From positions 1 through 34,595 of the forward strand of contig JAMCWL010000068.1 in NCBI GenBank assembly GCA_023481285.1: 34,595 nucleotides of DNA, in the 5' to 3' direction. The notes under the pieces are model-generated. The model saw only the letters and a program-made list of their open reading frames with translations. It had not been told where the DNA came from and did no database searches. The position numbers and the translations under genes are program-made. This DNA comes from Actinomycetota bacterium (lineage in GTDB: Bacteria; Actinomycetota; Aquicultoria; Aquicultorales; JAMCWL01). Of this stretch, positions 12,942-34,595 are shown piece by piece; positions within the stretch are counted from its first letter, which is position 1; each line of letters opens with the position of its first letter.

Positions 12942-12977
12942 GGCGTTTAAATAAGCAGCTAAAGGATGGGAGGTAAA

Positions 12978-18805: not shown

Positions 18806-20101
18806 ATGCGAACTGTCAAAAGTGAGATCAGGGTCGGTCTTATCGGTCTTGGTACCGTCGGTTCCGGGGTCGTTGAGATTCTGAGCAAACATCAGGAGGA
18901 CTTCAGGACGAAAACAGGGGTGGATGTGGTCCTCGCCAAAGCCGCCGACCGGGATGAATCGAGGGCTCAGGCGCTGGGCCTGCCGGCTGAAATCGCCTGC
19001 GGCGACGCCTCACTTGTCATCGACGATCCGGATATCGACATCGTGATCGAGCTTGTCGGCGGTATAAACCCCGCCAAGGACTTCGTGCTGAGGGCGCTCA
19101 AATCGGGAAAAAACGTGGTCACGGCAAACAAGGCGCTCATGGCTACCCACGGCAAAGAGATCATGGAAGAGGCGGAGGCTGCCGGAGTCGATATAGCGTT
19201 CGAAGCTTCGGTCGGCGGGGGCATTCCGATAATCCATCCACTCAAGGAAAGCCTGGCGGCGAATGAGATTGAAAAGGTCATCGGCATAGTGAACGGGACG
19301 ACCAACTTCATCCTTTCGGAGATGGCCGAGCAGGGTATCCTATTCGAGGAAGCCCTGGCGGAGGCGCAGCGGCGTGGATACGCGGAGGCCGACCCGACGG
19401 CGGATGTAGATGGGCTCGACGCCGCGGCGAAGATAGCGATCCTCGCGTCAATAGCTTTCAATAGCCGGACCACCTCCGACAGGGTCTTCACCGAGGGAAT
19501 CCGAAAGATAACACCGAGCGATATTGCGTACGCGCGCGATATGGGATATGCGATCAAGCTCCTGGCCATCGCCGCCAGGACGGCGGAGGGCATTGACGTG
19601 AGGGTCCACCCGACGATGATACCTCTGGCGCATCCGCTGGCTTCGGTAAACGGCGTCTATAACGCCATCTACGTCGTCGGCGATTCCGTAGGAGACGTGA
19701 TGTTCTACGGCCAAGGAGCCGGAAGTCTACCGGCGGCCAGCGCGGTCGTCGGCGACGTGATCGACGTTGCGAGGCGCCTGGCCGTCGGAAATCCCAGGCT
19801 CATCGGGTGCACCTGCTTCTTCGATATTCCAATCAGAGACCATCTCGAGACGCGAACCAAACATTATGTGAGAATGAGGATCATCGATAAGCCGGGCGTT
19901 TTGGCGCAGATCGCAAAAACCTTCGGGGATAACGAGGTTTCAATCGAGAGCGTCATCCAGAAAGAGCCGAGTGAAGGGGGCGCAGAGCTGGTCTTCGTGA
20001 CCCATGTCGTCAAAGAGAAAAACCTTCAGAAGGCGCTCTCCGGCATAGAAAGGCTGGAGGTCGTGAACGAGATCGCCAACCATGTCCGGGTGGAGGGATA
20101 G
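18806..20101 (+). CDS. hom: Homoserine dehydrogenase
   Basis: 431 residues; reduces aspartate semialdehyde to homoserine, the branch point to threonine and methionine. NAD(P) site GLIGLGTVGSGVVEIL near residues 11-26, then ANKALMATHGKE, the catalytic-domain signature IVNGTTNFILSEMAEQG and YAEADPTADVDGLDAAAK, and a C-terminal ACT domain (about 352-431, VRMRIIDKPGVLAQIAKTFG) typical of threonine feedback control. AGAGGTG lies upstream of ATG 18806. The stop TAG is joined to thrC directly (TAGATG), so the two are translated as an operon. The length and the ACT domain fit the usual bacterial form. Confidence 0.97.
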   Translation: MRTVKSEIRVGLIGLGTVGSGVVEILSKHQEDFRTKTGVDVVLAKAADRDESRAQALGLPAEIACGDASLVIDDPDIDIVIELVGGINPAKDFVLRALKSGKNVVTANKALMATHGKEIMEEAEAAGVDIAFEASVGGGIPIIHPLKESLAANEIEKVIGIVNGTTNFILSEMAEQGILFEEALAEAQRRGYAEADPTADVDGLDAAAKIAILASIAFNSRTTSDRVFTEGIRKITPSDIAYARDMGYAIKLLAIAARTAEGIDVRVHPTMIPLAHPLASVNGVYNAIYVVGDSVGDVMFYGQGAGSLPAASAVVGDVIDVARRLAVGNPRLIGCTCFFDIPIRDHLETRTKHYVRMRIIDKPGVLAQIAKTFGDNEVSIESVIQKEPSEGGAELVFVTHVVKEKNLQKALSGIERLEVVNEIANHVRVEG

Positions 20102-21154
20102 ATGGCTCAAAAGGGCTTGATCGGAAGGTATCGGGAGTACCTTCCGGTCTCGTCAAGCACTCCAGTCATAACGCTTTTGGAGGGCGACACCCCCCTCATT
20201 CCGGCCAGGGCGCTCTCGACGGAGCTTGGTCTTGCCGTCTACCTGAAGTATGAAGGGCTTAACCCGACGGGCTCTTTCAAGGACCGCGGCATGACGTTGG
20301 CGATATCAAAAGCTTTCGAAGAGGGATCGACCGCCGTGATGTGCGCCTCGACGGGCAATACGTCCGCTTCGGCGGCGGCCTACGCGGCCAGGGCCGAGAT
20401 GGATTGCGTTGTCATAATTCCAGGCGGCAGAATAGCTCTCGGCAAGCTCTCCCAGGCCCTCATGCATGGGGCGAAGGTAATTGCGGTCGACGGCAACTTT
20501 GACGCCGCCTTGAAGATCGTTCGTGAACTAACCGAGATTCACCCGATCACGCTCGTTAACTCTCTCAACCCTTATCGCATTGAAGGTCAGAAGACTGGCG
20601 CTTTTGAGATCTGCGATTCGCTTGGAAGAGCTCCGGACTACCTCGCGATTCCCGTTGGAAACGCCGGAAACATCACCGCCTACTGGCGGGGGTTCCGTGA
20701 GTATTGCGAGAAACGCAAGGTTGAGGGACGGCCGAAGATGATCGGTTTTCAGGCGGCCGGAGCGGCCCCGATAGTTCTGGGGCAGCCGGTTGAAAATCCG
20801 GAAACCATCGCAACCGCCATCCGTATCGGCAATCCGGCGCGCTGGAAAGAGGCGGAGGCCGCCGCCAAGGATTCGGGTGGAGCCATCGACATGGTCACCG
20901 ACGAAGAGATACTCGACGCCTACAAGTTTCTTGCATCAAGCGAGGGCGTTTTCTGCGAGCCGGCTTCGGCGGCTTCCGTCGCGGGCTTGAGAAAGTTCAA
21001 GAAAGAGGGCAAGATAGCTGAGGGTTCGCTCGTCGTCTGCGTGCTTACCGGACACGGCCTCAAGGACCCGGATACGGCCATCAAGATGGGAGAGGCCGTC
21101 ATCGAGAGCGAAGCAACCGCCGAAGCGGTCGAAAAAATCATTAAGGATCGGTAA
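20102..21154 (+). CDS. thrC: Threonine synthase
   Basis: 350 residues; a PLP enzyme that turns phosphohomoserine into threonine. PLP lysine is K60 in [13 protein letters not shown]. Also present are [17 protein letters not shown] and the phosphate-binding glycine turn [10 protein letters not shown]. The compact length is that of the short thermophile/actinobacterial type (class II-like lengths are over 450). Start ATG with GGAGGG upstream, zero bases after the hom stop. The downstream gap holds a heptamer array and a terminator, so hom-thrC form a unit separate from thrB. Confidence 0.97.
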
Positions 21155-21230
21155 TTAGTAATTGGTGCTTCGTTGCTTAAATCTATCAGACACCCTGTTG
21201 GAACCTCGAGGTAGCGCAACAGATGCCTTT

Positions 21231-21262
21231 AGCTGATAGCTGATAGCTGACGGCTGATAGCT
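21231..21262 (+). repeat. Heptamer array (AGCTGAT)
   Basis: Units AGCTGAT, AGCTGAT, AGCTGAC, GGCTGAT and AGCT. Bases 21232-21262 are the exact reverse complement of 11829-11859. Confidence 0.85.
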
Positions 21263-21272
21263 TAATTTAAAG

Positions 21273-21310
21273 AAGCAGCTCGCGCTCTGGCGCTGGCTGC
21301 TTTTTCTTTT
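21273..21310 (+). terminator. Intrinsic terminator after thrC
   Basis: AAGCAGC / GCTGCTT stem with a GCGC-tctg-GCGC inner stem, followed by TTTTTCTTTT. It closes the hom-thrC unit. Confidence 0.85.
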
Positions 21311-21438
21311 AGCTGGTGCATATTATTGACTCTTTTTAGGTAGATATTATCGGCAAGCCACTGGGAGTGGGGTTCTGACCGCCATTTGGAGGGCAGGGCT
21401 GTGAGCGGAGAATACTTGGGTCAAAGGAGGGGTTTGCC

Positions 21439-21621
21439 GTGTCGATGGATTTCAAATGTGAAAGGTGTGGACACAAGGGCGGGTTTCGACGGAGGGGTAT
21501 AGCCGGCGCTGAAATTCCAATACTTTTCCTGACCTTTGTTATTCCAGGGCTTTACCTATTACTCTATTTTCTTAGTAGGCCGGGACTGGTATGTTCGGAC
21601 TGCGGGCATTTTTCGAAATAA
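21439..21621 (+). CDS. Small zinc-ribbon membrane protein
   Basis: 60 residues from GTG 21439 with AAAGGAGG eight bases upstream, one of the best ribosome sites in the window. CERCGHKGG near residue 8 and CSDCGHFSK at the end give two CxxC pairs that could hold one zinc ion. Between them is a hydrophobic stretch (IPILFLTFVIPGLYLLLYFL, about 27-46) that would cross the membrane once or form a hairpin. Similar zinc-ribbon-plus-membrane arrangements occur in many small unknown proteins. It lies between the thrC terminator and a convergent gene. No function is assigned. Confidence 0.75.
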   Translation: MSMDFKCERCGHKGGFRRRGIAGAEIPILFLTFVIPGLYLLLYFLSRPGLVCSDCGHFSK

Positions 21622-21639
21622 TATATGTTAGACAAGCCC

Positions 21640-22140
21640 TTAATCATTGGCTTGGCCGATCTCCGCCAGTGAGAGCCTCCATCTTCGACCGTAATATTCG
21701 AGCAAGGGTATGTCTTGATTGATATCCCGAAGCATCAGGCGAAAGTTGGTCTGCCCATTGTCGGTTAGATAATATCCGCTGACCTCCACGATATTTGCAC
21801 GTGCGGAGTTCGCTGGTGAAATGGCACCCGAATCTGAAAGGTAGTCAAGCTTCTTTATTTCGACCGCACGGATCTTTCTTGCGTCCCTTAGGAAGTCTTC
21901 GGTCAATTTGACGTCAAGGTCCCCGAAGCTCTCACGCCGATCTGCAGGAAGGCTCCAGAAGGAAAGGGCGCCCGCACGGTTCTGAGCCCTTACTTCGGCG
22001 AAGAAGCGTCGCACCACTCGCTCGGGTGACCCAAACTCCTGAGCGTCTCGGATGTATGCACCGGCCCCAAAGGCCAATGCAAGGAGGGACACGGCAAGGC
22101 CTGTCAGTAGTATGAAGGTTAGCCTATGCCGCTCGTTCAT
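21640..22140 (-). CDS. Membrane-anchored protein of unknown function
   Basis: 166 residues. One N-terminal membrane segment (about 9-30, FILLTGLAVSLLALAFGAGAYI) is followed by an outer domain with SPERVVRRFFAEVRAQNRAG, ALSFWSLPADRR, VEIKKLDYL, VEVSGYYLTDNGQTNFRL and EYYGRRWRLSLAEIG. The mix of one helical start and later beta strands ending in W-R-L is like NTF2-like or DUF4829-type lipoprotein domains, but I cannot place it in a family. It points towards the zinc-ribbon gene with 18 bases between stops. No lipobox Cys is seen. Confidence 0.75.
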   Translation of the reverse strand: MNERHRLTFILLTGLAVSLLALAFGAGAYIRDAQEFGSPERVVRRFFAEVRAQNRAGALSFWSLPADRRESFGDLDVKLTEDFLRDARKIRAVEIKKLDYLSDSGAISPANSARANIVEVSGYYLTDNGQTNFRLMLRDINQDIPLLEYYGRRWRLSLAEIGQAND

Positions 22141-22361
22141 CCGTCCACCGACCGTAACTCTCCGAGTTTTTCAGTTATTGATACCCACAAAAACCTACAA
22201 AGCAAGGCGCCGGGTAATCGATAATGAAACAAGACGGAGGGCTGCATTTATAGTTTAGCATCTGCTTCTGCTTCCTGGTCTCCGGTTTCAACCTGGCAGA
22301 CAACCAGTCTGTTAATTGTTAAAATAGAGCGCAAGTCTTGCCTTTATATGAGGAGATTTGA

Positions 22362-23264
22362 TTGGTTGAGGTAAATGTCCCCGCGACCACCGCCAACCTG
22401 GGACCAGGCTTTGACGTGCTGGGCCTGGCGCTCGGCCTTCATAACACGATTCGCATGGAGGAGTGGGGCAGCGGGCTTTCCATCCGAATTTACGGAGAGG
22501 GTAGCCTAGACCTGCCGACCGACGAGGAGAACGCGGTCTCTAAGGCGGCCATGCGCCTTTTTGAGGAGGTTGATTACCGGCCGCACGGTCTGTACATCGA
22601 AACCGTTAACAAAATCCCGCTTGGGCGGGGCCTCGGATCGAGCGCTTCAGCGATTGTCGGCGGGCTGGTCGCTGCCAATGAGTTGGCGGGCGCTCCCCTC
22701 TCCCACCAGGAGATCTTCAAAATGGCGACGCAAATCGAGGGGCATCCCGACAACGTTGCCGCGGCTCTCTTCGGGGGGTTGACCATCTGCTATCAAACGG
22801 AGGACGGGTGGAGGTCGCTTCCCCTCAGGCCGGCCGATTCCATAAAAGCGATCGTTCTCATCCCCGATGAACAGTTGCCTACATCCGAATCGCGCGCGGT
22901 TCTGCCGATTGAAGTCACCCACGCGGATGCGGTCTTCAACATCTCTCGGGCGGCTCTGCTCGTCGGTGCGGTTCTAAACGGTCGCTCGGATATGCTCCCG
23001 GAGGCGACTCGTGATCGCTTGCACCAGCCCTACCGGGAGCCGCTCATACCGGGGCTCGATCACTTTACCGCGAATGTCCGGGAGATGCTCGAAATAGGGG
23101 TGGCGCTTTCGGGAGCCGGGCCTTCGATCATCTGCTTGATCTCCGCTTCGCAGGAGAAGGAGGCCTGCCGAAAGCTCAAGGGTTTTATTGACGAGCGCCA
23201 GCTAAATTACCGCATTCAACCGATGGAAATAGACCAGTGCGGCGTCCGCGTTATACGGAGTTAA
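22362..23264 (+). CDS. thrB: Homoserine kinase
   Basis: 300 residues; a GHMP-family kinase that phosphorylates homoserine before ThrC acts. Motif 1 is VPATTANLGPGFDVLGLALG, motif 2 (ATP loop) is IPLGRGLGSSASAIVGG, and motif 3 is GVALSGAGPSIICL. Start is TTG 22362 with AGGAG six bases upstream; no ATG suits the conserved N-terminus. It is about 1.2 kb from thrC instead of next to it, with two unrelated genes between. It ends convergent to the O-antigen ligase gene, and both stop codons share the palindrome TTAA (overlap 4 bases). Confidence 0.95.
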   Translation: MVEVNVPATTANLGPGFDVLGLALGLHNTIRMEEWGSGLSIRIYGEGSLDLPTDEENAVSKAAMRLFEEVDYRPHGLYIETVNKIPLGRGLGSSASAIVGGLVAANELAGAPLSHQEIFKMATQIEGHPDNVAAALFGGLTICYQTEDGWRSLPLRPADSIKAIVLIPDEQLPTSESRAVLPIEVTHADAVFNISRAALLVGAVLNGRSDMLPEATRDRLHQPYREPLIPGLDHFTANVREMLEIGVALSGAGPSIICLISASQEKEACRKLKGFIDERQLNYRIQPMEIDQCGVRVIRS

Positions 23265-24595
23265 TGGTGGCCGTAAAGATCAAGGACGGCTACACGTTTC
23301 GTTCGCGGGTTTAGAAATACTTTTCGGCCTGCCACGAGGAGCCCTAAGAGGAGCCAGAAGGTGTAGCTGATCGGCATCGAGTTATAAGGGTTGTCCACCA
23401 ATGAAGCAAGCGAGAAAGCAATGAAGGACGATGCAAAAGCTAGGCCGACAAAGCCGCCATAACCCTTGAGACGTGAAAGGTCTAGGGCCGACCAAATCGC
23501 GATTATGATGATGGCCAGCAACGCTAAGACAGCTACAAGGCCGACTTCAGCGGCCACATTCAAGAAGAGATTATGAGCATGCCAGAGGCTGACGGGGGCT
23601 TCACTCTGAGCAAAGCGCCTAAAATTACCGAGGCCGACCCCGAGAAATGGCTTTTTGGCGATCAGATTGAAGGCTGTCGACCAGGCGGTCAGCCTTTCAA
23701 GAGTGCTTCCTAATCGACCGCTGGCAAAAGGGTTGACAAGGATAGTGAGCGCCAACAGTGGGACTGCAAAGATAAAGCGACGATTCTTTCTTACCAGAAC
23801 AACTCCGATCGCCGTCAGCAGAGAAATGATGGCACCCCGAGAGAACGTTAGCGCGAGGGCTACGACTGAGGCCAACACGATAGCGCCCGCCGTCCACTTC
23901 GACGAGCCAAGTCTTTTAATGGAGGCGGTCGCAATCGGTATGAGTAGGATAAGGTAAGCGGCGAGTATGTTTGGATTATTGAAATGGCCCGACGCCCGTA
24001 CGATGGCCCCTTTCGGCATATCCAGGGATTCGATCGCTACCCAACGGCCCTGATAGACGAGGAAGAAATTCGTATTCTCCTGCGAAACGACCTGTTTTAT
24101 CGCGACTAAAGCGGCTATCGATAATGCCACGAGGAAGATGAGCATGGCGCTTTCGAACTCCTTCTGATTGCGGATAAGGCCTACGACAAGGAGAAATGCA
24201 AGAACTTCCTCCGCTTGTAATCTAAAGCCAGAGAAGCTCACAGGTGACAGGCTATAAAGGGATGAAATAGCGCTCCAGGCTAGAAAGAGGGCTATCGGTA
24301 TTAACAGATATAACGGTCTTTTTACGACTCGCCCGCCGGTTCCTGGAGGCTTCTCGATAAAGCGCAGAGCAAGCAGAGAGATCAATCCTAACGACAAGAT
24401 GAGGCGTGTCGTCGTAAAGTATTTGAGGACGACGATATCGGGCAGGAATGAGATGGAAGTTTGCAGGATTAGAAGGCCGAGACAGGATGAAGCGATACCC
24501 CTCAATCCATTTTGGGCTCTAATTGCTAAGCCCGCCCTCATCTTGCCCTCTTCCGTCCGGTGTGATATCAGGAATGGGTTTTTCACATATGGCAT
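23261..24595 (-). CDS. O-antigen ligase family protein (Wzy_C domain)
   Basis: Up to 444 residues with around twelve membrane segments. The core Wzy_C pattern is plain: ASGHFNNPNILAAYLILLIP, ALTFSRGAIISLLTAIG, KKPFLGVGLGNFRRF and LWHAHNLFLNVAAEVGLVAV. The conserved Arg of SRG and the His of AHN are thought to bind the undecaprenyl-linked glycan in this family, which ligates or polymerises surface polysaccharide. The frame starts at ATG 24595; ATG 24541 has a better GAGGG site and would shorten the protein by 18 residues. No glycosyltransferase genes are next to it. It sits between thrB and sppA on the opposite strand, so it looks like an insertion in the conserved block. Confidence 0.85.
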   Translation of the reverse strand: MPYVKNPFLISHRTEEGKMRAGLAIRAQNGLRGIASSCLGLLILQTSISFLPDIVVLKYFTTTRLILSLGLISLLALRFIEKPPGTGGRVVKRPLYLLIPIALFLAWSAISSLYSLSPVSFSGFRLQAEEVLAFLLVVGLIRNQKEFESAMLIFLVALSIAALVAIKQVVSQENTNFFLVYQGRWVAIESLDMPKGAIVRASGHFNNPNILAAYLILLIPIATASIKRLGSSKWTAGAIVLASVVALALTFSRGAIISLLTAIGVVLVRKNRRFIFAVPLLALTILVNPFASGRLGSTLERLTAWSTAFNLIAKKPFLGVGLGNFRRFAQSEAPVSLWHAHNLFLNVAAEVGLVAVLALLAIIIIAIWSALDLSRLKGYGGFVGLAFASSFIAFSLASLVDNPYNSMPISYTFWLLLGLLVAGRKVFLNPRTKRVAVLDLYGHH

Positions 24596-24680
24596 CAGCC
24601 AATTCTATTTTTCACTTAGGGGACGGTAGTAAACCCTGTCTTTAGTCGGTGATCCCCGGGCGGAGAAGAACAACGGCTTA

Positions 24681-24709
24681 TTGTCGCAACGGGGCTCGTC
24701 TGGTATCTT
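24681..24709 (+). promoter_or_regulatory. Probable promoter of sppA
   Basis: TTGTCG (24681-24686), a 17-base spacer and TATCTT (24704-24709). A transcription start near 24716 would favour ATG 24731 over ATG 24713 as the sppA start. Confidence 0.5.
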
Positions 24710-24730
24710 CTTATGGATCGGGGTGATTTT

Positions 24731-25648
24731 ATGTCCAAAAAGTGGAAAGTGGCTATATGGATAGTTGTCGGACTCCTGATTGCGGGGTATCTCATCGCCA
24801 TGGTCTTCGCCGTCAGCTCTGCTATCGGCGGGGGATCGGGAGGAAGCGATAAAATAGCCGTCATCAAGATAAGCGGTATCATGTCCAGCTCCGGGCTTAG
24901 CGGCGGACTTTTCGGTGAAAGCGGTACAACGGCCGAGAAGGTAGTCGGCGATCTCAAAAAGGCGGAAGAAGATCCCGACGTGAAATCGATAATTCTGCGC
25001 ATAGATTCGCCAGGCGGTACGGCCTCGTCCGGCCAGGAGATATACTCCCAGGTTAAGCGAACGCGGAAGAGTAAACCGGTGGTGGCGTCCATCGCCGACG
25101 TCGGAGCGTCGGCCGCCTACTGGGCGGCCTCCTCTACGGACGAGATCATCGCCGGGCCGGCGTCGGACGTGGGCTCGATCGGTGTTATCATCAGCGTCCC
25201 AAACTACAAGGGCCTCATGGACAAGCTGGGTATCTCATTCGTCACGATTACGCAGGGCAAGTATAAGAGTATTGGCGACCCCGCTCGCCCGATGACGGAG
25301 GAAGAGAAGCAGATTCTAAGAGGTCAATCGGAGGTTATATACCGTCGCTTTATAAGCGACGTCGCCACCGGCAGGCGCATGAAAGTACCCGAGGTCGAGA
25401 AGCTGGCGGATGGACTTGCCTGGCCGGGTAGTCAGGCTATCGAGATGAAGCTTGTCGACCGGTTGGGGAATTGGCAGGACGCAGTTGACCGGGCTGCCAA
25501 ATTGGGTAAAATTGAAGGCAAGCCTGAGATTATCAGTTATGACGAGCCCTCGCCTTTTGAGGTGTTACGCTCCTTGTTTGGGGCTAAATCGCCGAGGTTG
25601 TTGGATATTCTCTCCTCCGAGGTGGGCAGGCAGCCTCTCAGTCGTTAA
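24731..25648 (+). CDS. sppA: Signal peptide peptidase SppA
   Basis: 305 residues, the short single-domain form (as in B. subtilis), with an N-terminal anchor (about 7-30). This serine protease breaks down cleaved signal peptides in the membrane. The nucleophile is S127 in DVGASAAYW and the general base K179 in GKYKSIG. SPGGT (93-97) gives the oxyanion region, and GSIGVI follows. Residues AIGGGSGGSDKIAVIKISG begin the protease domain. Start ATG 24731 has GGGGTGA four bases upstream. It is followed by a 165-base gap and the metallophosphoesterase gene on the same strand. Confidence 0.92.
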   Translation: MSKKWKVAIWIVVGLLIAGYLIAMVFAVSSAIGGGSGGSDKIAVIKISGIMSSSGLSGGLFGESGTTAEKVVGDLKKAEEDPDVKSIILRIDSPGGTASSGQEIYSQVKRTRKSKPVVASIADVGASAAYWAASSTDEIIAGPASDVGSIGVIISVPNYKGLMDKLGISFVTITQGKYKSIGDPARPMTEEEKQILRGQSEVIYRRFISDVATGRRMKVPEVEKLADGLAWPGSQAIEMKLVDRLGNWQDAVDRAAKLGKIEGKPEIISYDEPSPFEVLRSLFGAKSPRLLDILSSEVGRQPLSR

Positions 25649-25813
25649 TATATGGGCCAGGCGCGGTTGAAGCGCGATATCGGTTGGGTATATCAAGCTA
25701 GGGTTCGCGCGTATAAAGAAGTCGGCGCAGGAGCGTCTAGTAAATGGTGCGTTCCCTCTTACCTGGAGACATTTCCTTAGCTCTCTTATGAGACGCATCC
25801 GGAGCAAGCGTTA

Positions 25814-26623
25814 ATGCCTAAAAAAAATTCGTTGACCATCGCGCACATCTCCGATCTCCATACCGGTTCCCAGTATTTCATCCCGAATCTCCTTAGTAGG
25901 ACGATAGAGGAGCTGAACCAGATGGGGCCGGACATAGTCGTCGTGACCGGAGATATAACGGACGCCGGGTTTGAGCAAGAGTACAAGATGGCCGAGACAT
26001 TCCTGTCGCTGCTCAAGTGCGAGCGGCGTCTTCTCGTACCCGGCAACCACGATTCAAGAAACGTGGGCTACCTTCATTTCGAGGAGATATTCGGAATACG
26101 CGACGGCAAGCTCGAGCATGGAGGCGTCCGGGTTCTTGGGACGGACTCGTCCGAGCCGGACCTCGACAACGGCCGGATAGGCAGGGAGAGGTACCGCTGG
26201 ATGGAAGAGGAGTTCACCGACCCGGACGAGTTCAAGATATTCGCGCTCCATCATCATCTTCTGCCGGTTCCAGGGACGGGGCGCGAGCGGAACATCGTCT
26301 ATGATGCCGGTGATCTTCTCGAAGTGCTCCTAACCTGCGGGGTGGATATCGTCCTCTGCGGCCATAAGCACGTTCCGTACGTTTGGCGCCTTGAAAACCT
26401 GGTCGTCGTCAACGCGGGAACGGCCTCGTCACTGCGGCTCAGAGGCAAGACTAAACCCTGCTATAATATCGTGAATGTGGAAAAAGAGCAGGTGAGGATA
26501 TACCGGAAATATCCGTACGGCCAGAGCGAGCTGATCGCTGAGTTTTCATGTGACGAACGCGCCGTCTGCAAATGGGAAAGAATGAACTCCGAAGCCCGGC
26601 CGGGGGTGGTTTCCGATCGATAA
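25814..26623 (+). CDS. Calcineurin-like metallophosphoesterase
   Basis: 269 residues with the complete five-motif set: ISDLHTG (D14, H16), TGDITD (D47), VPGNHD (N78-D80), ALHHHLLP and CGHKHVPYVW. These hold two metal ions. The family includes cyclic nucleotide phosphodiesterases (CpdA/Icc type), which it resembles in length, but the substrate is not fixed by motifs. Its end overlaps the cyclic 2,3-diphosphoglycerate synthetase by 8 bases if that gene starts at AUC. A hydrolase for a cyclic phosphate next to a cyclase is worth noting, although no experiment supports that pairing. Confidence 0.88.
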   Translation: MPKKNSLTIAHISDLHTGSQYFIPNLLSRTIEELNQMGPDIVVVTGDITDAGFEQEYKMAETFLSLLKCERRLLVPGNHDSRNVGYLHFEEIFGIRDGKLEHGGVRVLGTDSSEPDLDNGRIGRERYRWMEEEFTDPDEFKIFALHHHLLPVPGTGRERNIVYDAGDLLEVLLTCGVDIVLCGHKHVPYVWRLENLVVVNAGTASSLRLRGKTKPCYNIVNVEKEQVRIYRKYPYGQSELIAEFSCDERAVCKWERMNSEARPGVVSDR

Positions 26624-27953
26624 GGTAATCGCCCTTGTTGATGGGGAGCACTACCCGCCCGTCGTTCGCGACGCGCTCGACTCCTTGACAAGAGATTATG
26701 GATACGAGCTTGCCGCGGCAGTCTTCGTCGGGGGGCTTGAGAAGGTATCCGATCAAGAGGCGCTCTCGTATGGTCTTCCGCTTTATCGTGAAGAAAGCCC
26801 CGAGCAGGCCTTGGCAAAAGCGATCGACGAGCTCGCTCCCGACGCGGTCGTCGATCTTTCGGACGAGCCGGTTCTGGACTACGTCAAACGTTTCCGGCTC
26901 GCGAGTCTGACCCTCGCGAGGGGAGTCGCATATGTAGGAGCCGATTTCCGCTTCGACCCACCGGATCTGCCCGAAGTGCTGGCCAAGGCCTCGATCGGCG
27001 TGATCGGGACGGGGAAGCGGATAGGCAAGACGGCGATCTCGGGTTTCGCCTGTCGCGAGCTCTCGTCGGCGGGGTTCAAGCCGGTCGCGATCGCCATGGG
27101 CAGGGGCGGGCCGCCGGAGCCCGAGATTCTGCTCGGCCGGGAGGTCGAACTCACACCGGAAGGCCTGCTTGCTTTTGCGGATAGTGGAAAGCATGCGGCG
27201 TCCGATTATTTCGAAGATGCTTTGACGAGCCGGATTACAACGATCGGCTGCCGGCGGTGCGGCGGCGGCCTGGCCGGAGCGCCTTTCGTCTCGAACGTTC
27301 TTGCCGGGGCGCGCCTCGCGAACTCCCTCGAGGAGAATTTCGTGGTGGCCGAGGGGAGCGGCGCAACGCTTCCGCCGCTCAAGGTCGACGCCTACATTTT
27401 ATCGGTCGGCGCCGGTCAGCCGCTTGAATATGTTGCCGGCTACTTCGGGACATACCGGGCGCTTCTTTCCGACGTCGTGGCGATCACCATGTGTGAGGAG
27501 CCGTTTGCGGGCAGGGAGAAGATTGAAAGTATTTACGGAGCGCTCAAAGAGATAAAACCCGATCTCAAGGTGGTTAAAACCGTATTTCGACCCAAGCCGC
27601 TCGGTGAGATCAAGGATAAGCGGGTTTTTGTTGCCATGACCGCTTCGCCGGGCGTCGAGGCCGCAGTACGCTCTCACCTTGAGGCGGCGGGGGCTCAGGT
27701 CGTCGGGATGACCTACTCCCTTTCAAACCGCCCGCAACTCAAGCGAGAGCTTAAAGAGGCGTCCGGAGCCGAAGTTCTTCTGACGGAGCTGAAAGCGGCG
27801 GCGGTCGATGTGGCCACAAGAGAAGCGCTTGCCATGGAGATGGAAGTCATCTACCTGGATAATGAGCCGGTGACGGTTGGCGGAGACGGCGATCTTAAAG
27901 AGCTCATCCTCGAGGTTGCCGGCACCGCGGTCGAAAGATTCTCTTCTTCTTAA
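26616..27953 (+). CDS. cpgS: Cyclic 2,3-diphosphoglycerate synthetase
   Basis: About 445 residues. In methanogens this ATP-dependent enzyme closes 2,3-bisphosphoglycerate into cyclic 2,3-diphosphoglycerate. The N-terminus VIALVDGEHYPPVVRDALDS is the family signature; the ATP loop is GVIGTGKRIGKTAISGF; VVAEGSGATLPPLKVDAYIL and LTELKAAAVDVATREAL follow. No ATG, GTG or TTG lies in frame between the upstream TGA and VIALVDGEHY. The only usable codon is AUC at 26616, six bases after GGGGGTGG. The first ordinary start, TTG 26685, would remove the conserved DGEHYPP. The 2-phosphoglycerate kinase gene follows after 22 bases, completing the pathway. Confidence 0.88.
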   Translation: MDKVIALVDGEHYPPVVRDALDSLTRDYGYELAAAVFVGGLEKVSDQEALSYGLPLYREESPEQALAKAIDELAPDAVVDLSDEPVLDYVKRFRLASLTLARGVAYVGADFRFDPPDLPEVLAKASIGVIGTGKRIGKTAISGFACRELSSAGFKPVAIAMGRGGPPEPEILLGREVELTPEGLLAFADSGKHAASDYFEDALTSRITTIGCRRCGGGLAGAPFVSNVLAGARLANSLEENFVVAEGSGATLPPLKVDAYILSVGAGQPLEYVAGYFGTYRALLSDVVAITMCEEPFAGREKIESIYGALKEIKPDLKVVKTVFRPKPLGEIKDKRVFVAMTASPGVEAAVRSHLEAAGAQVVGMTYSLSNRPQLKRELKEASGAEVLLTELKAAAVDVATREALAMEMEVIYLDNEPVTVGGDGDLKELILEVAGTAVERFSSS

Positions 27954-27975
27954 ATAGCTGTTGGGGGGCTTATCG

Positions 27976-28923
27976 ATGAAAAAACCCAAGCAAGAAGGGA
28001 AAAAGAGGCAGATAATCATCAGCGAAAAGAAGCACGACTTGCCCTACTCGAAGGGCCTCATGGCTTCGTCGATCATGGCGACCGGGCTCCCGCCGAGTCG
28101 AGCGTACAGGATCGCCAAGCTGATCGAGGATGCGATGGTCGAAGCGGGTAAGTTTTCGGTCAGCCTGGACGAGCTGCGGTATTTCGCGTATGAGACGATC
28201 GCCGAGGAAGAAGGATTGGAGTTCGCCCAGAAATACCGGCGGTGGCAAGCAATGGGCAAGCTTGACAAGCCGATGATCATCCTGATAGGAGGTACGACGG
28301 GCGTCGGCAAATCGACGATCGCGACGGCCATCGCGCACCGCCTTGGCATCACGCATATCGTTGCCACCGATTCTCTACGGGAAGTTATGCGGTCGCTGCT
28401 GTCGACCGAACTAATGCCTACGCTGGGCGAATCGAGCTTTTCCGCCTGGCGGGCGATCTCCTTGCCGCTTCCGCCCGACGCCGATCCGGTCATCGTTGGT
28501 TTTCGGGAGCAGGTCGCGGCGGTAAGCGTCGGCATCAAGGCGGTCGTCGACCGGGCCGTGCATGAGGGCCTTAACGCGATAATCGAGGGCGTTCACGTTG
28601 TGCCTGGTTTCCTGGCAGTTGAGGCGTTTGAGAACGCTTTCGTCGTCCAGATCATCGTCCATGTGGAAGACGAAGACGACCACCTTTCCCACTTCTACAT
28701 CCGTGAATTGCAGACCGACGGGCTCCGAGCCTTTGAGAGGTATAGGGCGAATTTTGTCAATATCCGTAAGCTTGGCGAGTACATTCTCGACATGGCGAAG
28801 GATAATGGAATTCCGGTCGTCAGGGGGAACAATTTCGACTTGGCTGTGACCGTTTCGCTGGAAATTATATTGAATCGGGTGCTGGGTCCGGTTGAAGAGA
28901 AGAGCGTCAAATCAGGCAATTGA
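27976..28923 (+). CDS. 2-phosphoglycerate kinase
   Basis: 315 residues. In the cDPG pathway it phosphorylates 2-phosphoglycerate to 2,3-bisphosphoglycerate, the substrate of cpgS. Residues 10-92 are an ATP-cone-like regulatory domain ([45 protein letters not shown]). The kinase part begins with the P-loop [11 protein letters not shown] (104-114), then [25 protein letters not shown] and IREL with an Arg-rich lid. Start ATG 27976 has GGGGGG seven to eight bases upstream. It lies directly after cpgS, and transaldolase follows after 40 bases. The ATP-cone suggests allosteric control by adenine nucleotides. Confidence 0.88.
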
Positions 28924-28963
28924 GTTGTATGTTTTTAGTAGCCGTGAATCTAGGGAGGATGGA

Positions 28964-29626
28964 ATGAAGCTATTCATCGACACCGCAAATATCGAGCATA
29001 TCCGGGAGGTGAATAGCTGGGGAATCCTGGACGGCGTGACCACAAATCCGACGCTCTGCGCCAAAGAGGGGCGGGATTTCAGAGAGGCGATCGCGGAGAT
29101 ATGCGCCGAGGTTGCAGGGCCCGTTTCGGCAGAGGCGGTCTCCGTGAACCGCGAGGAGATAATCACGGAAGCGCGCGAGCTGTCGCGGATAGCTCCGAAC
29201 GTCGCCGTCAAAATCCCGATGACCACGGAGGGACTGGCGGCCACCAAGGTGCTCTCGGGGGAAGGTGTAAAGGTCAACATGACCCTTATATTCTCCGCCA
29301 ATCAGGCGCTCTTGGCAGCCAAAGTCGGGGCGGCTTTCACTTCGCCTTTCGTTGGAAGGATAGACGACACCGGCCACGACGGGATGGAGCTTATTGACGA
29401 AATCGTCACCGTTTACGATAATTACAACGTTCCCACGGAAATCATAGCTGCAAGTATCCGCCATCCCCTTCACGTCATCCAAGCGGCGATGCTCGGCGCG
29501 GATATCGCGACGGTGCCGTACGCCGTTATCAAGGCGATGGTTAAGCATCCGCTTACCGACAGGGGAATTGAAAGTTTTCTGAAAGATTGGGAGAAGCTTC
29601 AAGATGCCATAAAGGTCGGCGGCTAA
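28964..29626 (+). CDS. tal: Transaldolase (small TalC/MipB type)
   Basis: 220 residues, the short form shared by transaldolases and fructose-6-phosphate aldolases. Schiff-base Lys is K83 in [31 protein letters not shown] opens the barrel, GVTTNPTL follows, and [21 protein letters not shown] and [12 protein letters not shown] are all present. Start ATG 28964 has AGGGAGG upstream. The Arg in SFV-G-R and the length suit TalC. Motifs alone do not settle transaldolase against F6P aldolase, but the former is more common. It follows the cDPG genes, and rho begins 79 bases later, so it may share their transcript. Confidence 0.92.
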
Positions 29627-29705
29627 GCTTTTACGCTTTAGGGTTGGCCTTGCACCAGCGTGATCCGTATCTACAATACATAGGCTTAAGGAAGGTGTTA
29701 TCTGT

Positions 29706-31133
29706 ATGGACCGAAGCGAACTGGAGAGTAAGACCTTAGCCCAGCTTCGTCCGCTCGCCAAGGAACTGGGTATCTCCAACATAATCGCGATGCGCAAGAA
29801 TGAGCTCATCGACGCTATTCTGGAGAAAGAAGCTGGAGGTAAAATGGAAGGGCGCGCGAGACCCCGGGGGGTACCCGCTGCGGAAGAGATGGAGGAAGCG
29901 CCGGCACGGGAATACGCTCCCCGAGAGGTACGCGAGTATGCACCGAGGGAGTACCGGGAGTACGTTCCTCGGGAGCCGCGGGAGTACGCACCCAGAGAAA
30001 GAATCGAGCAACCCCTCGTCGTCAAGCAGGGGATTCTCGACATCCTGAGCGAGGGTTATGGGTTCTTGCGCACCAAGGGCTACCTCCCGAGCGACGGCGA
30101 CATCTACGTTTCGCTCTCCCAGATTCGCCGCTTCAATCTCCGACGCGGGGACGAGGTCGCCGGTCAGGTGCGACCGCCAAAGGATTCGGAGAAATACTAT
30201 GCGCTTCTGCGGATCGACAAGGTGAACGGGGACGACCCCGAGGTCGCCCGCGCCCGCGCGCAGTTCGAAACTCTCACCCCCATTTATCCGGAGAGCAGGC
30301 TGGTGCTCGAGACCAAGCCGACCGATGTCACCCAGCGCATCATCGACCTTATCGCGCCGATCGGCAAAGGCCAGCGCGGTCTGATCGTATCTCCGCCAAA
30401 GGCCGGAAAGACGACCGTCTTGAAGCAAGTCGCGAACTCCATAGCCCAGAACAACCCGGAAGTGCTCATTATGGCCCTTCTCGTCGACGAGAGGCCGGAA
30501 GAGGTTACGGATATGGAGCGCTCAATCAAGGGCGATGTTGTATCGTCAACTTTCGACATGCCGGCCGACAACCACGTCGCCGTCGCCGAACTCGTTCTCG
30601 AGCGGGCGAAGCGGCTCGTCGAGCACGGTAAGGACGTCTTCGTCCTGCTTGATTCGATAACAAGGCTGGCGAGGGCTTATAACCTGACCTCTCCCGCATC
30701 CGGGCGCGTGCTCTCCGGCGGCGTGGACTCGACGGCGCTCTTCCCCCCAAAGCGATTCTTCGGCGCGGCGAGGAATATCGAGCACGGCGGCTCCTTGACG
30801 ATCATTGCCACCGCCCTCGTTGAGACTGGATCGCGGATGGACGACGTCATCTTTGAAGAGTTCAAGGGGACCGGTAACCTGGAGCTCAGACTCGACCGGC
30901 GCCTGGCCGACAAGAGAATCTTCCCGGCGATCGATATCGATGCGAGCGGCACTCGAAAGGAGGAGTTGCTTCTACCCTCGGGTGAGCTCTCGCTTGTCTG
31001 GAAGTTAAGAAGAGTGCTCCACGCGCTCGATCCCGCGGCAGCCTTGGAGCTCTTGATCGATAAGATCAAAGAGACGAAGTCAAACAGCGAGTTTCTCCAG
31101 TTGATAACAAAGACAAGAGTGGAAGAGTACTAA
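29706..31133 (+). CDS. rho: Transcription termination factor Rho
   Basis: 475 residues. RNA-dependent hexameric ATPase that ends transcription. Rho_N at 3-43 ([20 protein letters not shown]), then an acidic/basic insert (46-100) with four octapeptides REY(A/V)PREx, an OSCF/CSD RNA-binding domain (about 105-175, [15 protein letters not shown]), Walker [13 protein letters not shown] near 229-240, Walker [10 protein letters not shown] near 312-320, and the [15 protein letters not shown]-loop region. The insert is the sort found between Rho_N and the RNA-binding domain in high-GC Gram-positive bacteria, but is short. Start ATG 29706 has GGAAGGTG upstream. The nitroreductase gene follows after 3 bases. 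Confidence 0.97.
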
Positions 31134-31136
31134 GAA

Positions 31137-31649
31137 ATGGAACTTTACGAGGCGATCCATGCTCGCCAGTGCATCAGGTCGTACGGGGACGGGCGGATAC
31201 CGGATGGGGTTGTCGAACGGCTTTTAGAGGCGGCTGTCGCGGCACCCTCCGCCGGTAATCTCCAATCTTGGCGCTTCTACGTCGTGGCCGAACCTCGACT
31301 TAAAGAAGGGCTCGCGCGCGCGGCGAGACAGCGGTTTGTCGGCCAAGCTTCTCACGTGATAGTCGTCTGCGCGGACCTCGTCACCGCCGAAAACGGCTAT
31401 GGGGATCGGGGGAGGGAGCTCTACTGCTTCCAGGACGCGGCGGCGGCTACGCAGAACCTCTTTCTTGCCGCCACGGCGGAAGGACTGGCCGCCTGCTGGG
31501 TGGGCGCCTTTGACGAGGCGGCCGTCTCGCGCCTTCTCGACCTTCCGGCCCGTTTTCGCCCGGTGGCACTGGTTCCGCTCGGCTATCCCGGCGGGACGAC
31601 GGGCAGGCGTCCTCGCAAGCCGCTCAGCGAAGTCGCCGAGTGGCGGTAA
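31137..31649 (+). CDS. Nitroreductase-family protein
   Basis: 170 residues. FMN-dependent oxidoreductase fold: IHARQCIRSYGDGRIPDGVV binds the FMN phosphate, AAVAAPSAGNLQSWRFYVV stacks on the ring, DAAAATQNLFLAATAEGLAA forms the long helix, and VALVPLGYPGG ends the core. It is a short single-domain form. The substrate cannot be told, since the family covers nitro compounds, quinones, thioether rings and dehalogenation. It begins three bases after the rho stop, so it is almost certainly translated from the rho transcript. Rho and rpmE are usually adjacent, and here this gene and a 390-base gap separate them. Confidence 0.88.
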   Translation: MELYEAIHARQCIRSYGDGRIPDGVVERLLEAAVAAPSAGNLQSWRFYVVAEPRLKEGLARAARQRFVGQASHVIVVCADLVTAENGYGDRGRELYCFQDAAAATQNLFLAATAEGLAACWVGAFDEAAVSRLLDLPARFRPVALVPLGYPGGTTGRRPRKPLSEVAEWR

Positions 31650-31728
31650 GAAGACATATCATCCCTTGCGCTTTGCCAGCCGCTCGGCAGGCCACCGAAG
31701 TAGCTTGTGAGTAACATTAATCCCCAAA

Positions 31729-31823
31729 CTAGTACGGCACCAACTTGTTCCTAATGAGAATACTCTATTGCAAGTGGTTGTCCTACCCTGAAGCCTAGGC
31801 GTATCAAGTTGGTGCTGTACTAG
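31729..31823. repeat. 95-bp element with 19-bp inverted ends
   Basis: CTAGTACGGCACCAACTTG at 31729-31747 and CAAGTTGGTGCTGTACTAG at 31805-31823 pair with one mismatch. A 57-base centre separates them. The size and ends resemble a MITE, or a large transcript hairpin. No clear target duplication is visible. Confidence 0.7.
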
Positions 31824-31868
31824 GAGATAACCCGTTGCTAACAAAACGTGACCTTTTCCTCTGCTCTG

Positions 31869-31941
31869 GTGCGGAGGGTCTTGATGTGCAGAGTTTTGAC
31901 AATCGTGCGGAGGGTCTTGTGCGGAGGGTCTTGATTGTCAA
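31869..31941 (+). repeat. 14-bp repeats inside a 9-bp inverted repeat
   Basis: GTGCGGAGGGTCTT occurs at 31869, 31905 and 31919; the last two are in tandem. They are framed by TTGACAATC (31896-31904) and GATTGTCAA (31933-31941). The right arm overlaps the -35 box of the rpmE promoter, so the block may be an operator. Confidence 0.7.
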
Positions 31942-31963
31942 GCTTATCCGGGTGTGCTAGCAT
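31935..31963 (+). promoter_or_regulatory. rpmE promoter
   Basis: TTGTCA (31935-31940), a 17-base spacer, TGC and TAGCAT (31958-31963) give an extended -10 promoter. Transcription should start near 31970, 73 bases before the rpmE ATG. Confidence 0.65.
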
Positions 31964-31986
31964 TATGAAGTTCATCAGCGCACTTC

Positions 31987-32017
31987 GTTCACGGTTGCAT
32001 GACCGTGAACTCTTTTT
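31987..32017 (+). terminator. Leader terminator or attenuator before rpmE
   Basis: 9-bp perfect stem GTTCACGGT / ACCGTGAAC, 6-base loop, then TCTTTTTT. It is only about 17 bases after the predicted transcription start and 16 bases before the GGAGGTGA ribosome site, so it cannot serve an upstream gene alone and would stop rpmE transcription unless relieved. Confidence 0.7.
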
Positions 32018-32042
32018 TGAAACCTTGTTTGGAGGTGACGTT

Positions 32043-32324
32043 ATGAAGAAGACCGGACATCCGGAGTATGTAAAAGCTCGTATACTCTGCTCGTGTGGGG
32101 AGGTCTTTGAGACCCGCGCCACTCAGGAGGAGATCCGCGTAGAGATCTGCTCGAAGTGTCACCCCTTCTACCTGGGGACGGGGCGCCAGCGCCTTGTCGA
32201 TAAAGGGGGTAGAGTCGAGCGCTTCCAGAAGAAGTATGGCGAGTATCGGGCCCAGCCTGTTCAGCAGGAAGAGGTCGCCAAGGAGGTCGCGCCGGCAGCC
32301 GCAGAAGGTACCGCTGAGGCATAA
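32043..32324 (+). CDS. rpmE: 50S ribosomal protein L31
   Basis: 93 residues from ATG 32043, with a perfect GGAGGTGA upstream. [20 protein letters not shown] opens the protein; CSCG and [10 protein letters not shown] provide the zinc-type (C+) ligands, and [10 protein letters not shown] follows. This is the zinc-binding paralogue, which links L31 to zinc status in many bacteria. An Ala/Glu-rich tail (about 70-93) extends past the usual end. An in-frame extension upstream through the leader hairpin is not a credible start. The DUF1385 gene follows after a terminator. Confidence 0.95.
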
Positions 32325-32355
32325 AATGTTGACAGCGACCGTTAGCCCTTGAAGG

Positions 32356-32386
32356 GCCCCGCGGTATCATACCGACGGGGCTTTCT
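32356..32386 (+). terminator. Intrinsic terminator after rpmE
   Basis: GCCCCG-c-GGTAT / ATACC-ga-CGGGGC stem followed by TTTCT. Confidence 0.8.
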
Positions 32387-32393
32387 GGCTTCT

Positions 32394-32417
32394 TGGTACC
32401 GTGGTATCGTGGTACCG
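32394..32417 (+). repeat. Three 8-bp repeats (TGGTACCG)
   Basis: TGGTACCG, TGGTATCG, TGGTACCG in tandem. Similar TAGTACCT/TGGTACCT units occur near 11974. Confidence 0.75.
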
Positions 32418-32501
32418 CAGCACCTTGAGATGCTGGCGTCTCGGTACAGGGTATCAAGTTAGTTTACTTAGTAAAGAACGTCCCCTTATGGGAGAGCGGT
32501 A

Positions 32502-33395
32502 ATGGCTGAGTTTCGCGTTGGAGGACAGGCGGTAATTGAGGGCGTTATGATGCGCGGTGAACGCGAGTGGAGCGTGGCCGTCCGAACGCCCGATGGCGAG
32601 ATTGTCAGGACAAAGCAGTCGGTCGGCTCACTTCTGGAAAGATATCCCATTCTGAAAAAACCGCTCTTGCGCGGCATCGTCTCGCTCGTAGAAACGCTCG
32701 TTCTGGGCGTCAAGGCCCTCTCCTACTCGGCGAACGCGTCGCTTGGAGCGAAAGACGAGGAGATCACGGCGATCTCAAGTAAAGAATGGGCGGCTACCTT
32801 TGCGCTCGCCGTCGTCGTTACCGTCGGGCTCTTTATGCTCGCCCCATATTATCTGACGCGCTTCGTCGCACAAGGCGCGGGCAACCGGGTCTTCTTCGCG
32901 ATGGTTGAAGGGCTCTTCCGGATCACCATCTTTCTTGGCTACATAGCCGTGATTTCTCGCATGAAAGACATCAAGCGCGTCTTCCAATATCACGGCGCCG
33001 AACATAAGGTGATCAACGCCCTGGAGGCTGGGAGAGTGCTTACGCCGGAAAACGCCGCCGAGTACTCGACCCAGAATGTGCGTTGCGGGACAAGCTTTCT
33101 CCTGATCGTCATGGTCCTGGCGATTTTCACCTTCTCATTTTTACCGACCGCGAGCGTTTTTCAAAGAGTTATCGGCAAAATCCTGCTCATTCCTGTGATC
33201 GCGGGCGTCGGATACGAGCTCTTCAAATTCGCCGCCAGACATCTCGACTCGCGGGTAGTTAAAGTTCTGGTCTGGCCCGGCCTTACGCTTCAAAAACTGA
33301 CGACGCGCGAGCCCGATCACGCTCAACTTGAAGTTGCGGTAGCGGCTCTTCAAGAGGTCCTCCCCGCCGAAGATATGGAGCCAGCGAAAGCATAA
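32502..33395 (+). CDS. DUF1385 membrane protein (YqhQ type)
   Basis: 297 residues. The N-terminal signature is VGGQAVIEGVMMRGEREWSV, followed by four or five hydrophobic segments (AATFALAVVVTVGLFMLAP, FRITIFLGYIAVISRM, FLLIVMVLAIFTFSFLPTA, KILLIPVIAGVGYELFKFAA) and the polar block FQYHGAEHKVINALEAG with ENAAEYSTQNVRCGTSFL. The function of this family is unproven. Next to rpmE and prfA it is found in several Firmicutes and deep Actinomycetota. Start ATG 32502 has GGGAGAG upstream. A GGGGACGTTCTTT motif on the minus strand lies just before it. Confidence 0.92.
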   Translation: MAEFRVGGQAVIEGVMMRGEREWSVAVRTPDGEIVRTKQSVGSLLERYPILKKPLLRGIVSLVETLVLGVKALSYSANASLGAKDEEITAISSKEWAATFALAVVVTVGLFMLAPYYLTRFVAQGAGNRVFFAMVEGLFRITIFLGYIAVISRMKDIKRVFQYHGAEHKVINALEAGRVLTPENAAEYSTQNVRCGTSFLLIVMVLAIFTFSFLPTASVFQRVIGKILLIPVIAGVGYELFKFAARHLDSRVVKVLVWPGLTLQKLTTREPDHAQLEVAVAALQEVLPAEDMEPAKA

Positions 33396-33421
33396 CTCCT
33401 GCTAGAAGTGGGAGCGGTGTA

Positions 33422-33450
33422 TTTACGGTCACCCTCCGTTCGACTATAAT
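33422..33450 (+). promoter_or_regulatory. Possible prfA promoter
   Basis: TTTACG (33422-33427), a 17-base spacer and a perfect TATAAT (33445-33450). It would give a leader of about 100 bases that includes the hairpin at 33495. Confidence 0.55.
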
Positions 33451-33494
33451 CGAAGAACACCACCGGTCAGACAATACGAGACGGTTTTTCAGAG

Positions 33495-33524
33495 CGCTAC
33501 CGGAAACATGGGTAGCGATTTTTA
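33495..33524 (+). terminator. Hairpin in the prfA leader
   Basis: CGCTACC / GGTAGCG stem with a 9-base loop and ATTTTTA after it. It lies between the possible promoter and the prfA ATG. It may end the DUF1385 transcript or act as an attenuator. The T-run is short. Confidence 0.5.
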
Positions 33525-33559
33525 CGTCCGATGATCGTTGGTTTCAAAGGTGAGTTCTC

Positions 33560-34595
33560 ATGATCGATAAACTAAGAGAGATCGAAGAAAGGTACAACGA
33601 AATAACGGAGAAGCTGGGCGATCCAGACATCCTCTCCGACCAGGAGAAATATCGCGAGTACGCCAAAGCGCACTCGGAGCTGTCGCCGCTCGTCTCCAAA
33701 ATCAAGCGCTTGTCCGACATTCAGAGGGATATAGCTGACAGCCGCGAGATGATTAAAGAAGAACGCGACCAGGAGATGCGCGAGTTTCTTGAGAAAGAGG
33801 TTCACGCCCTTGAGGAGGAGCGGGCGCAGGTTGAGGAGGAGATCAAGATCGACATGATTGCCAAGGATCCCAACGACGAGAAGAACATCATCGTCGAAGT
33901 AAGGGCGGGCACCGGTGGTGAGGAGGCGGCGCTTTTCGCGGCCGATCTCTCCCGCATGTACACCCATTTCGCCGAGCGTAATCGCTGGAAGACCGAGATC
34001 TTAAGCTCTTCGCCATCGGACGTCGGAGGCTTCAAGGAAATTATCTTCGAAGTCAAAGGGAAGGGCGCCTACTCCAGGCTCAAGTACGAGTCCGGCGTCC
34101 ATCGCGTTCAGCGGATTCCGGTGACCGAATCCGGCGGGCGGATTCACACCTCGACGGCGACCGTCGCGGTCTTGCCCGAAGTCGAAGAGGTTGAAGCCGA
34201 GATCAACCCGCAAGATGTCCGGGTGGATATCTTCCGCTCCGGCGGCCCTGGTGGGCAGAGCGTAAACACGACCGACTCGGCCGTCCGCCTGACCCACCTG
34301 CCGACGGGCATAGTCGTCTCCTGCCAGGATGAGCGCAGCCAGCTCCAGAACAAGGATCGGGCCTTCAGGATACTGCGCGCGCGCCTCTATGAGATGAAGA
34401 TCGAGGAGCAGGAGCGTGAGCAAGCGTCGGCCCGCCGTTCCCAGGTCGGCACGGGGGATAGGAGCGAACGAATCCGGACCTATAATTTCCCGCAGAACCG
34501 CGTGACCGATCACCGGATCGGCTTTACCACCCACGACCTGGGAGGCGTTCTCGAAGGGGCGCTGACCGAGCTCCTCGACCACTCTATCGAGGTCG
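33560..34595 (+). CDS. prfA: Peptide chain release factor 1 (3' end beyond window)
   Basis: 345 codons are visible and the frame is still open at the edge; the full protein should be about 355-360 residues. The stop-codon reader motif is P187-V188-T189 in [12 protein letters not shown], the RF1 type (UAA/UAG), not the SPF of RF2. The catalytic GGQ is at 231-233 in [14 protein letters not shown]. The N-terminal helices ([19 protein letters not shown]) are normal. Start ATG 33560 has GGTGAG upstream. Here prfA follows DUF1385, not rpmE directly. Many genes in this window end in TAG, which RF1 reads. Confidence 0.95.

Follow-up and report, generated by a model that had tools for sequence, protein, structure and literature searches.

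Does an actinomycetote bacterium make and turn over cyclic 2,3-diphosphoglycerate (cDPG), a solute that a 2023 structural paper describes as exclusive to hyperthermophilic methanogens (PMC10690619)? The question is raised by a contig of 34,595 nucleotides (JAMCWL010000068.1, analysed over its whole length and here called the window), in which genes for a cDPG synthetase (cpgS) and a 2-phosphoglycerate kinase (2PGK) follow a metallophosphoesterase (MPE) gene. A preliminary description of this DNA had noted the arrangement and suggested that the host makes cDPG and that MPE acts on it. We think it probable that the operon is an old actinomycetote system for the synthesis and turnover of cDPG. 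The genes and the signals between the first two of them are the following.

25814-26623, + strand: metallophosphoesterase (MPE), intact, with a PF00149 match
26616-27953, + strand: cpgS, cyclic 2,3-diphosphoglycerate synthetase, 445 codons plus stop, intact
27976-28923, + strand: 2-phosphoglycerate kinase (2PGK), ATG start, intact
26616-26623, + strand: overlap of the cpgS start with the MPE stop, 8 nt, ATCGATAA, read from the sequence
26601-26608, + strand: Shine-Dalgarno-like CGGGGGTG, 7 nt ahead of the cpgS start
26616-26618, + strand: non-canonical cpgS start codon ATC, the same site being ATA/ATC class-wide

The cpgS stop and the 2PGK ATG are separated by 22 nt (27954-27975). This spacing, the 8-nt overlap and the gene coordinates had all been described correctly. 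An alternative in-frame start for 2PGK, TTG, lies at 27961, with GGGGGG at 27963-27968.

The two cDPG-forming enzymes

CpgS aligned over its full length with PDB entries 8oru, 8ork and 9sxb, all named cDPG synthetase (E = 1e-120 to 1e-131). With 8oru/8ork, the enzyme of Methanothermus fervidus, residues 3-443 aligned to 5-456 (E = 2e-131, 49% identity), and the two proteins share the N-terminal domain, the P-loop and the contacts to 2,3-diphosphoglycerate (2,3-DPG) and Mg-ADP (PMC10690619). The window protein differs from the M. fervidus enzyme in being bacterial and phylum-wide, in its operon with MPE and 2PGK, and in its ATC/ATA start codon. For the ligand contacts (2,3-DPG, Mg, ADP) we took the twelve residues named in PMC10690619 and mapped them by alignment; P335 was set aside because the numbering of the paper could not be reconciled with the sequence at this position. 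The remaining 11 could be mapped, and all were identical in the window CpgS (E42, K43, K134, R135, K138, T139, D197, E294, T342, E391 and K393). Across 57 bacterial and 18 archaeal CpgS sequences, E45, K46, K145, R146, K149, T150 and D208 (M. fervidus numbering) were invariant; T353, E404 and K406 were each missing from just a single bacterial row, through a gap, and E305 was kept in 51 of the 57 bacterial rows. The preliminary description had singled out loss of active-site residues as a sign against the pathway, and no such loss was seen at the mapped contacts. All available sequence tests identify CpgS as a cDPG synthetase.

Over its full length, 2PGK matched the 2-phosphoglycerate kinase models PRK12337/PRK04220 (NF008994, E = 1e-94; NF003259, E = 5e-92), with residues 15-315 on positions 3-300 of the 306 of NF003259 and the P-loop present. 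It was 38-40% identical to methanogen 2PGK in an end-to-end alignment that includes the P-loop, and 32 columns were invariant across the bacterial and archaeal sequences; a search for a solved structure matching 2PGK found none. The window gene is linked to cpgS, unlike its counterparts at the methanogen loci examined, Methanolliviera excepted. It also aligned end to end with the 2PGK of Poribacteria, where 2PGK, cpgS and the gene of an archaeal-type phosphoglycerate mutase directly follow one another (L102:3784-7694) and where the 2PGK beside cpgS exceeds the cut-off of 343. This order independently suggests that the pathway starts from 2-phosphoglycerate. Both enzymes claimed for this bacterium were thus borne out at the level of homology, and production of cDPG by the host is likely.

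The metallophosphoesterase

MPE carries the two-metal motifs D-x-H, GD, GNHD, H and GHxH (D14, H16, G46-D47, G77-N78-H79-D80, H146 and G183-H184-H186) together with a subfamily signature, HHHLLPVPGTGRERN...DAGD...GHKHVPYVWRLEN. The metal-site and signature residues did not vary among 18 relatives from bacteria and archaea. Sequence and predicted fold (pLDDT 82) agreed on the glycerophosphodiesterase GpdQ and the phosphodiesterase Rv0805 (PF00149) as the closest relatives of solved structure, which have the fold and the two-metal motifs in common with MPE but are only 20-25% identical to it and lack the signature GRERN...DAGD...GHKHVPYVW. MPE falls into no curated equivalog, every NCBIfam match being far under its cut-off. 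It is only by analogy that phosphodiesterase chemistry would suit the opening of a cyclic phosphoanhydride. A membrane-bound cDPG hydrolase activity from Methanothermobacter thermautotrophicus is reported, as cited in PMC1224877, and it would be the same reaction as that of MPE if MPE opens the cDPG ring. No gene assigned to the methanogen cDPG hydrolase was found in the open papers searched. Many Actinomycetota have a further MPE paralogue (about 50% identity, for example G001:C32:28614-29327), which was present, among the matches listed, in cpgS-positive genomes only, bar G096.

Distribution of the three genes

We surveyed 217 evenly drawn Actinomycetota genomes that were at least 90% complete, with E < 1e-30 as the threshold for presence of MPE. 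cpgS was found in 118 of the 217, and in 11 of 11 same-order genomes and 46 of 60 relatives. Both cpgS and MPE were present in 117 of the surveyed genomes and neither in 98, with one genome holding cpgS without MPE (G037) and one MPE without cpgS (G096), counts that ignore shared ancestry. The distribution of 2PGK paralleled that of cpgS, departing from it solely in G183 and G065. MPE adjoined cpgS in at least 99 of the 118 cpgS-positive genomes (G066, G154 and G156 being counted as not adjacent), and 2PGK adjoined it in 93 of them. The presence and distribution of the genes are firm, and the MPE-cpgS-2PGK arrangement is far beyond chance, since it recurs across Actinomycetota. MPE tracks cpgS beyond chance, in place of the chance-level co-occurrence that the preliminary description had allowed for, and the cDPG genes are spread through the phylum and are not an oddity of one bacterial genome.

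Departures from the common arrangement were also seen. Two genomes (G028 and G064) lacked MPE, cpgS and 2PGK altogether, while members of the same families kept all three. In family f23, MPE remained beside cpgS, and 2PGK had relocated and diverged to about 33% identity; a genome of this family has a class II fructose bisphosphatase as a conserved neighbour, just under cut-off. In G175 (contigs C4 and C61), MPE and 2PGK were adjacent with no cpgS between them and a diverged cpgS (31% identity) lay on another contig, a possible case of cpgS loss and replacement.

Methanogen CpgS formed a clade of its own (SH-aLRT 97), the outcome of the comparison with archaeal homologues that the preliminary description had called for, and a single actinomycetote CpgS clade was not rejected (AU p = 0.80). 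The phylum distribution and the separate methanogen clade indicate that the cpgS operon has long been in the phylum and was handed down mostly by vertical descent, with no recent import. Spread by mobile elements was considered and dropped, as no relatives were found on plasmids, phages or viral contigs.

Outside Actinomycetota, bacterial cpgS was found in Bacillota, Poribacteria and Mcinerneyibacterium, the last with a tandem MPE after cpgS-2PGK. Among 115 Methanobacteriota genomes, 101 carried cpgS, including many host-associated Methanobrevibacter, so cpgS is not tied to hyperthermophily. MPE relatives in methanogens were 42-52% identical to MPE and had the same GRERN...DAGD...GHKH signature; 92 of the 115 genomes held both genes and 8 neither, with cpgS alone in 9 and MPE alone in 6 (Fisher p = 8e-5, not corrected for ancestry). 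In two of the Bacillota loci (L103 and L130), cpgS is flanked by a GntR/UTRA regulator on one side and, on the other, by an importer similar to 2-aminoethylphosphonate (phnS2/PhnT2) transporters. The CpgS of M. fervidus is reversible, so the Bacillota with importer-linked cpgS may, speculatively, take up cDPG or a relative of it and run CpgS in reverse for ATP.

The cpgS start codon

The window offers cpgS no ATG, GTG or TTG start from the in-frame stop at 26583 down to the conserved N-terminal KVIALVDGEHYP, a point absent from the preliminary description; ATC at 26616 is the first plausible initiator. At the cpgS start of 25 same-class relatives we found ATA in 20, ATC in 2, GTA in 1 and an ordinary start codon in 2, where codons inside the conserved N-terminus were excluded from the count of canonical starts; including the window, the 26 class members comprise 20 with ATA and 3 with ATC. 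A Shine-Dalgarno-like stretch preceded ATA/ATC by 7 nt in 19 of 22 relatives, as well as in the window. Of 152 other neighbouring genes of the same genomes, 1 had no canonical start. In L069 (G018), thrC likewise has no in-frame ATG, GTG or TTG start. In L043 / L080 (G020), cpgS seemingly starts with GTA where its relatives have ATA, which reflects either an error of sequencing or an even rarer start codon.

ATA/ATC occurred in three geometries: a 4-nt overlap (ATAA/ATAG), an overlap of 8 nt, seen in the window and in family f6, and no overlap (L052 and L069). In the 4-nt group, ATG would yield TGA as the MPE stop, valid and used in these genomes, yet it was not seen. The base preceding the MPE stop in this group was A except in L043, and the rest of that codon was variable. 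Because relatives show ATA/ATC at the same place, we take the ATC start of cpgS to be genuine.

The infC genes of the class, including that of the window genome (L192), mostly start with ATC, ATA or ATT behind a strong Shine-Dalgarno sequence (L175-L198). As in infC and other genes with AUA, AUC or AUU starts (PMC13009471), a strong Shine-Dalgarno followed by AUH is conserved at cpgS. Unlike those cases, cpgS encodes a metabolic synthetase, sits at a gene overlap and keeps the feature across families of one class. In Staphylococcus aureus, AUA/AUU starts yield about 10% of AUG expression (PMC13009471). From this drop and the conserved ATA/ATC start we infer that CpgS synthesis is held low or conditional in the class.

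Genomic setting and host

Two conserved neighbours lie directly downstream of the operon.

28964-29626, + strand: fructose-6-phosphate aldolase/transaldolase, TIGR00875 above cut-off, supported by synteny
29706-31133, + strand: rho, TIGR00767 above cut-off, supported by synteny

Beyond rho follow a nitroreductase, ribosomal protein L31 and a DUF1385 protein, and upstream of MPE lie lysA, hom, thrC, thrB and sppA. The rho/thr block named earlier as the setting is indeed conserved in relatives (hom, thrC, thrB ... fsa, rho, L31, DUF1385), and the gene order of the window agrees with that of its closest relatives across about 12-15 kb. An Rfam scan of 20000-34595 returned no RNA element. The window is contig C65 of a draft genome of 2.17 Mb in 115 contigs (92% complete, 3.25% contamination). 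The host belongs to Actinomycetota, in the same order as Candidatus Aquicultor, and its other nearest relatives are deep-branching Actinomycetota. Elsewhere in the window, a membrane pyrophosphatase (12966-15203, NF001952 above cut-off) bears on phosphate energetics, and the top family match of the gene at 16721-17374 was a methanogen-type thymidylate synthase, TIGR03283, well under cut-off.

Proposed pathway

We propose that 2PGK would phosphorylate 2-phosphoglycerate to 2,3-DPG and that CpgS would then close the ring with ATP to give cDPG. MPE would most likely reopen the ring as a cDPG hydrolase and, less likely, dephosphorylate 2,3-DPG; its action would send carbon and phosphate back to gluconeogenesis. 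The sugar-phosphate neighbours, fructose-6-phosphate aldolase here and fructose bisphosphatase in family f23, fit such a link. Since relatives of MPE track cpgS in methanogens too, MPE is a strong genetic candidate for a cDPG hydrolase, and we put its action on cDPG itself at about an even chance. Translation of cpgS would be coupled to the MPE stop and restrained by the AUC/AUA start behind the Shine-Dalgarno sequence. With cpgS translation coupled and held down in this way, cDPG in the class would probably be a metabolically controlled phosphate/energy reserve or a regulator rather than a bulk heat protectant.

Alternative explanations

To the shared ancestry behind the survey counts, which weighs against this proposal, several further points have to be added. 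The window 2PGK differs from the methanogen 2PGK models in scoring under the curated equivalog cut-offs (308 bits vs 343, and 318 vs 603). Family f14 and some others keep cpgS/2PGK without an adjacent MPE and have only a paralogue of ~46-50% elsewhere; G037 has no MPE at all, and the nine methanogens with cpgS alone, including M. cuticularis, and the six with MPE alone depart from the association outside the phylum. Bacillota with cpgS (L103, L104 and L130; also L097, L118 and L123) have no 2PGK or close MPE. By eye, MPE has no obvious membrane segment, in contrast to the methanogen hydrolase, which is reported as membrane-bound, and a strong Shine-Dalgarno together with coupling can offset a weak start codon. 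There is a substantial minority chance that cDPG is made but MPE has another job, as a nucleotide or phospholipid-head-group phosphodiesterase or a housekeeping phosphatase, the operon reflecting co-expression in a conserved core block. The whole block is conserved, which makes proximity weak on its own, glycerophosphodiesters or cyclic nucleotides are the substrates of the closest relatives with solved structures, and several lineages retain cpgS with no MPE beside it. This explanation does not readily accommodate an MPE that follows cpgS genome by genome, even where the two are not adjacent and in methanogens that do not have the block, that is lost jointly with cpgS and 2PGK, and that stays by cpgS in family f23 as 2PGK leaves. 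It is distinctly less probable that the bacterial CpgS/2PGK pair has switched to a related cyclic pyrophosphate, an idea favoured by about 50% divergence from the characterised enzyme and by the Bacillota homologues that have no 2PGK. We consider this quite unlikely, as the mapped 2,3-DPG and Mg-ADP contacts are kept from archaea to nearly all sampled bacteria, 2PGK aligns end to end with its methanogen counterpart, and Poribacteria place a phosphoglycerate mutase beside the pair.

Protection from heat or salt through cDPG accumulated at high concentration, the established role of cDPG in Methanothermus and Methanopyrus (PMC10690619, PMC12136491), is the function by which the preliminary description introduced the compound. 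For this class we regard it as unlikely. The 92%-complete host genome yielded no full-length reverse gyrase, the best matches being fragments far below cut-off; cpgS is present in many host-associated methanogens; and the weak cpgS start codon is conserved, so that the throttled CpgS synthesis it would bring argues against bulk thermoprotectant use. The same start codon could be incidental if cpgS had no start of its own and were made as an MPE-CpgS fusion by ribosomal frameshifting at the overlap. Overlapping frames, the lack of a canonical start and the GTA at the start position in G020 would fit frameshifting, and Shine-Dalgarno-like stretches, which can stimulate it, are present. In L069, however, MPE already stops 26 nt ahead of ATC, and the codon immediately before ATC is an in-frame TAA; in L052 the MPE stop also precedes ATC. 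ATA/ATC is common to all three geometries, mostly with the 7-nt spacer, and the base before the stop in the 4-nt group is nearly constant although the rest of its codon varies. We rejected the fusion on the stops in L069 and L052 and on the presence of ATA/ATC in all geometries, and consider it very improbable. Least probable of all is that the locus was recently transferred from a methanogen or sits on a contaminating contig. The pathway is best known from methanogens, and the assembly has 115 contigs with 3.25% contamination; against this stand the gene order shared with the closest relatives, the separate archaeal CpgS clade, the actinomycetote clade that was not rejected, and the lack of relatives on plasmids, phages and viral contigs. 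Synteny and the CpgS tree led us to reject both transfer and contamination.

Significance

The enzymes of this system belong to known kinds; the novelty lies in a bacterial operon that has MPE linked to it, in the phylum-wide spread and in the conserved non-canonical start. We found no reports of bacterial cDPG in a search limited to open papers, which is no proof of absence. A broader proposal, which we hold as speculative and rather doubtful, is that cDPG is widespread and ancestral in Actinomycetota, that MPE is the cDPG hydrolase of bacteria and methanogens alike, and that, in the class, a conserved AUA/AUC start that responds to the fidelity of initiation factors keeps CpgS synthesis low and links cDPG to the state of translation in the cell. 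It is rare for a metabolic gene to keep the identity of its start codon class-wide, and the conserved AUA/AUC of cpgS is a clean example. The linked MPE supplies one specific candidate gene for the cDPG hydrolase, so far reported as an activity. With genes for the whole predicted cDPG route present in about half of the Actinomycetota sampled, a role for cDPG beyond heat protection becomes directly testable.

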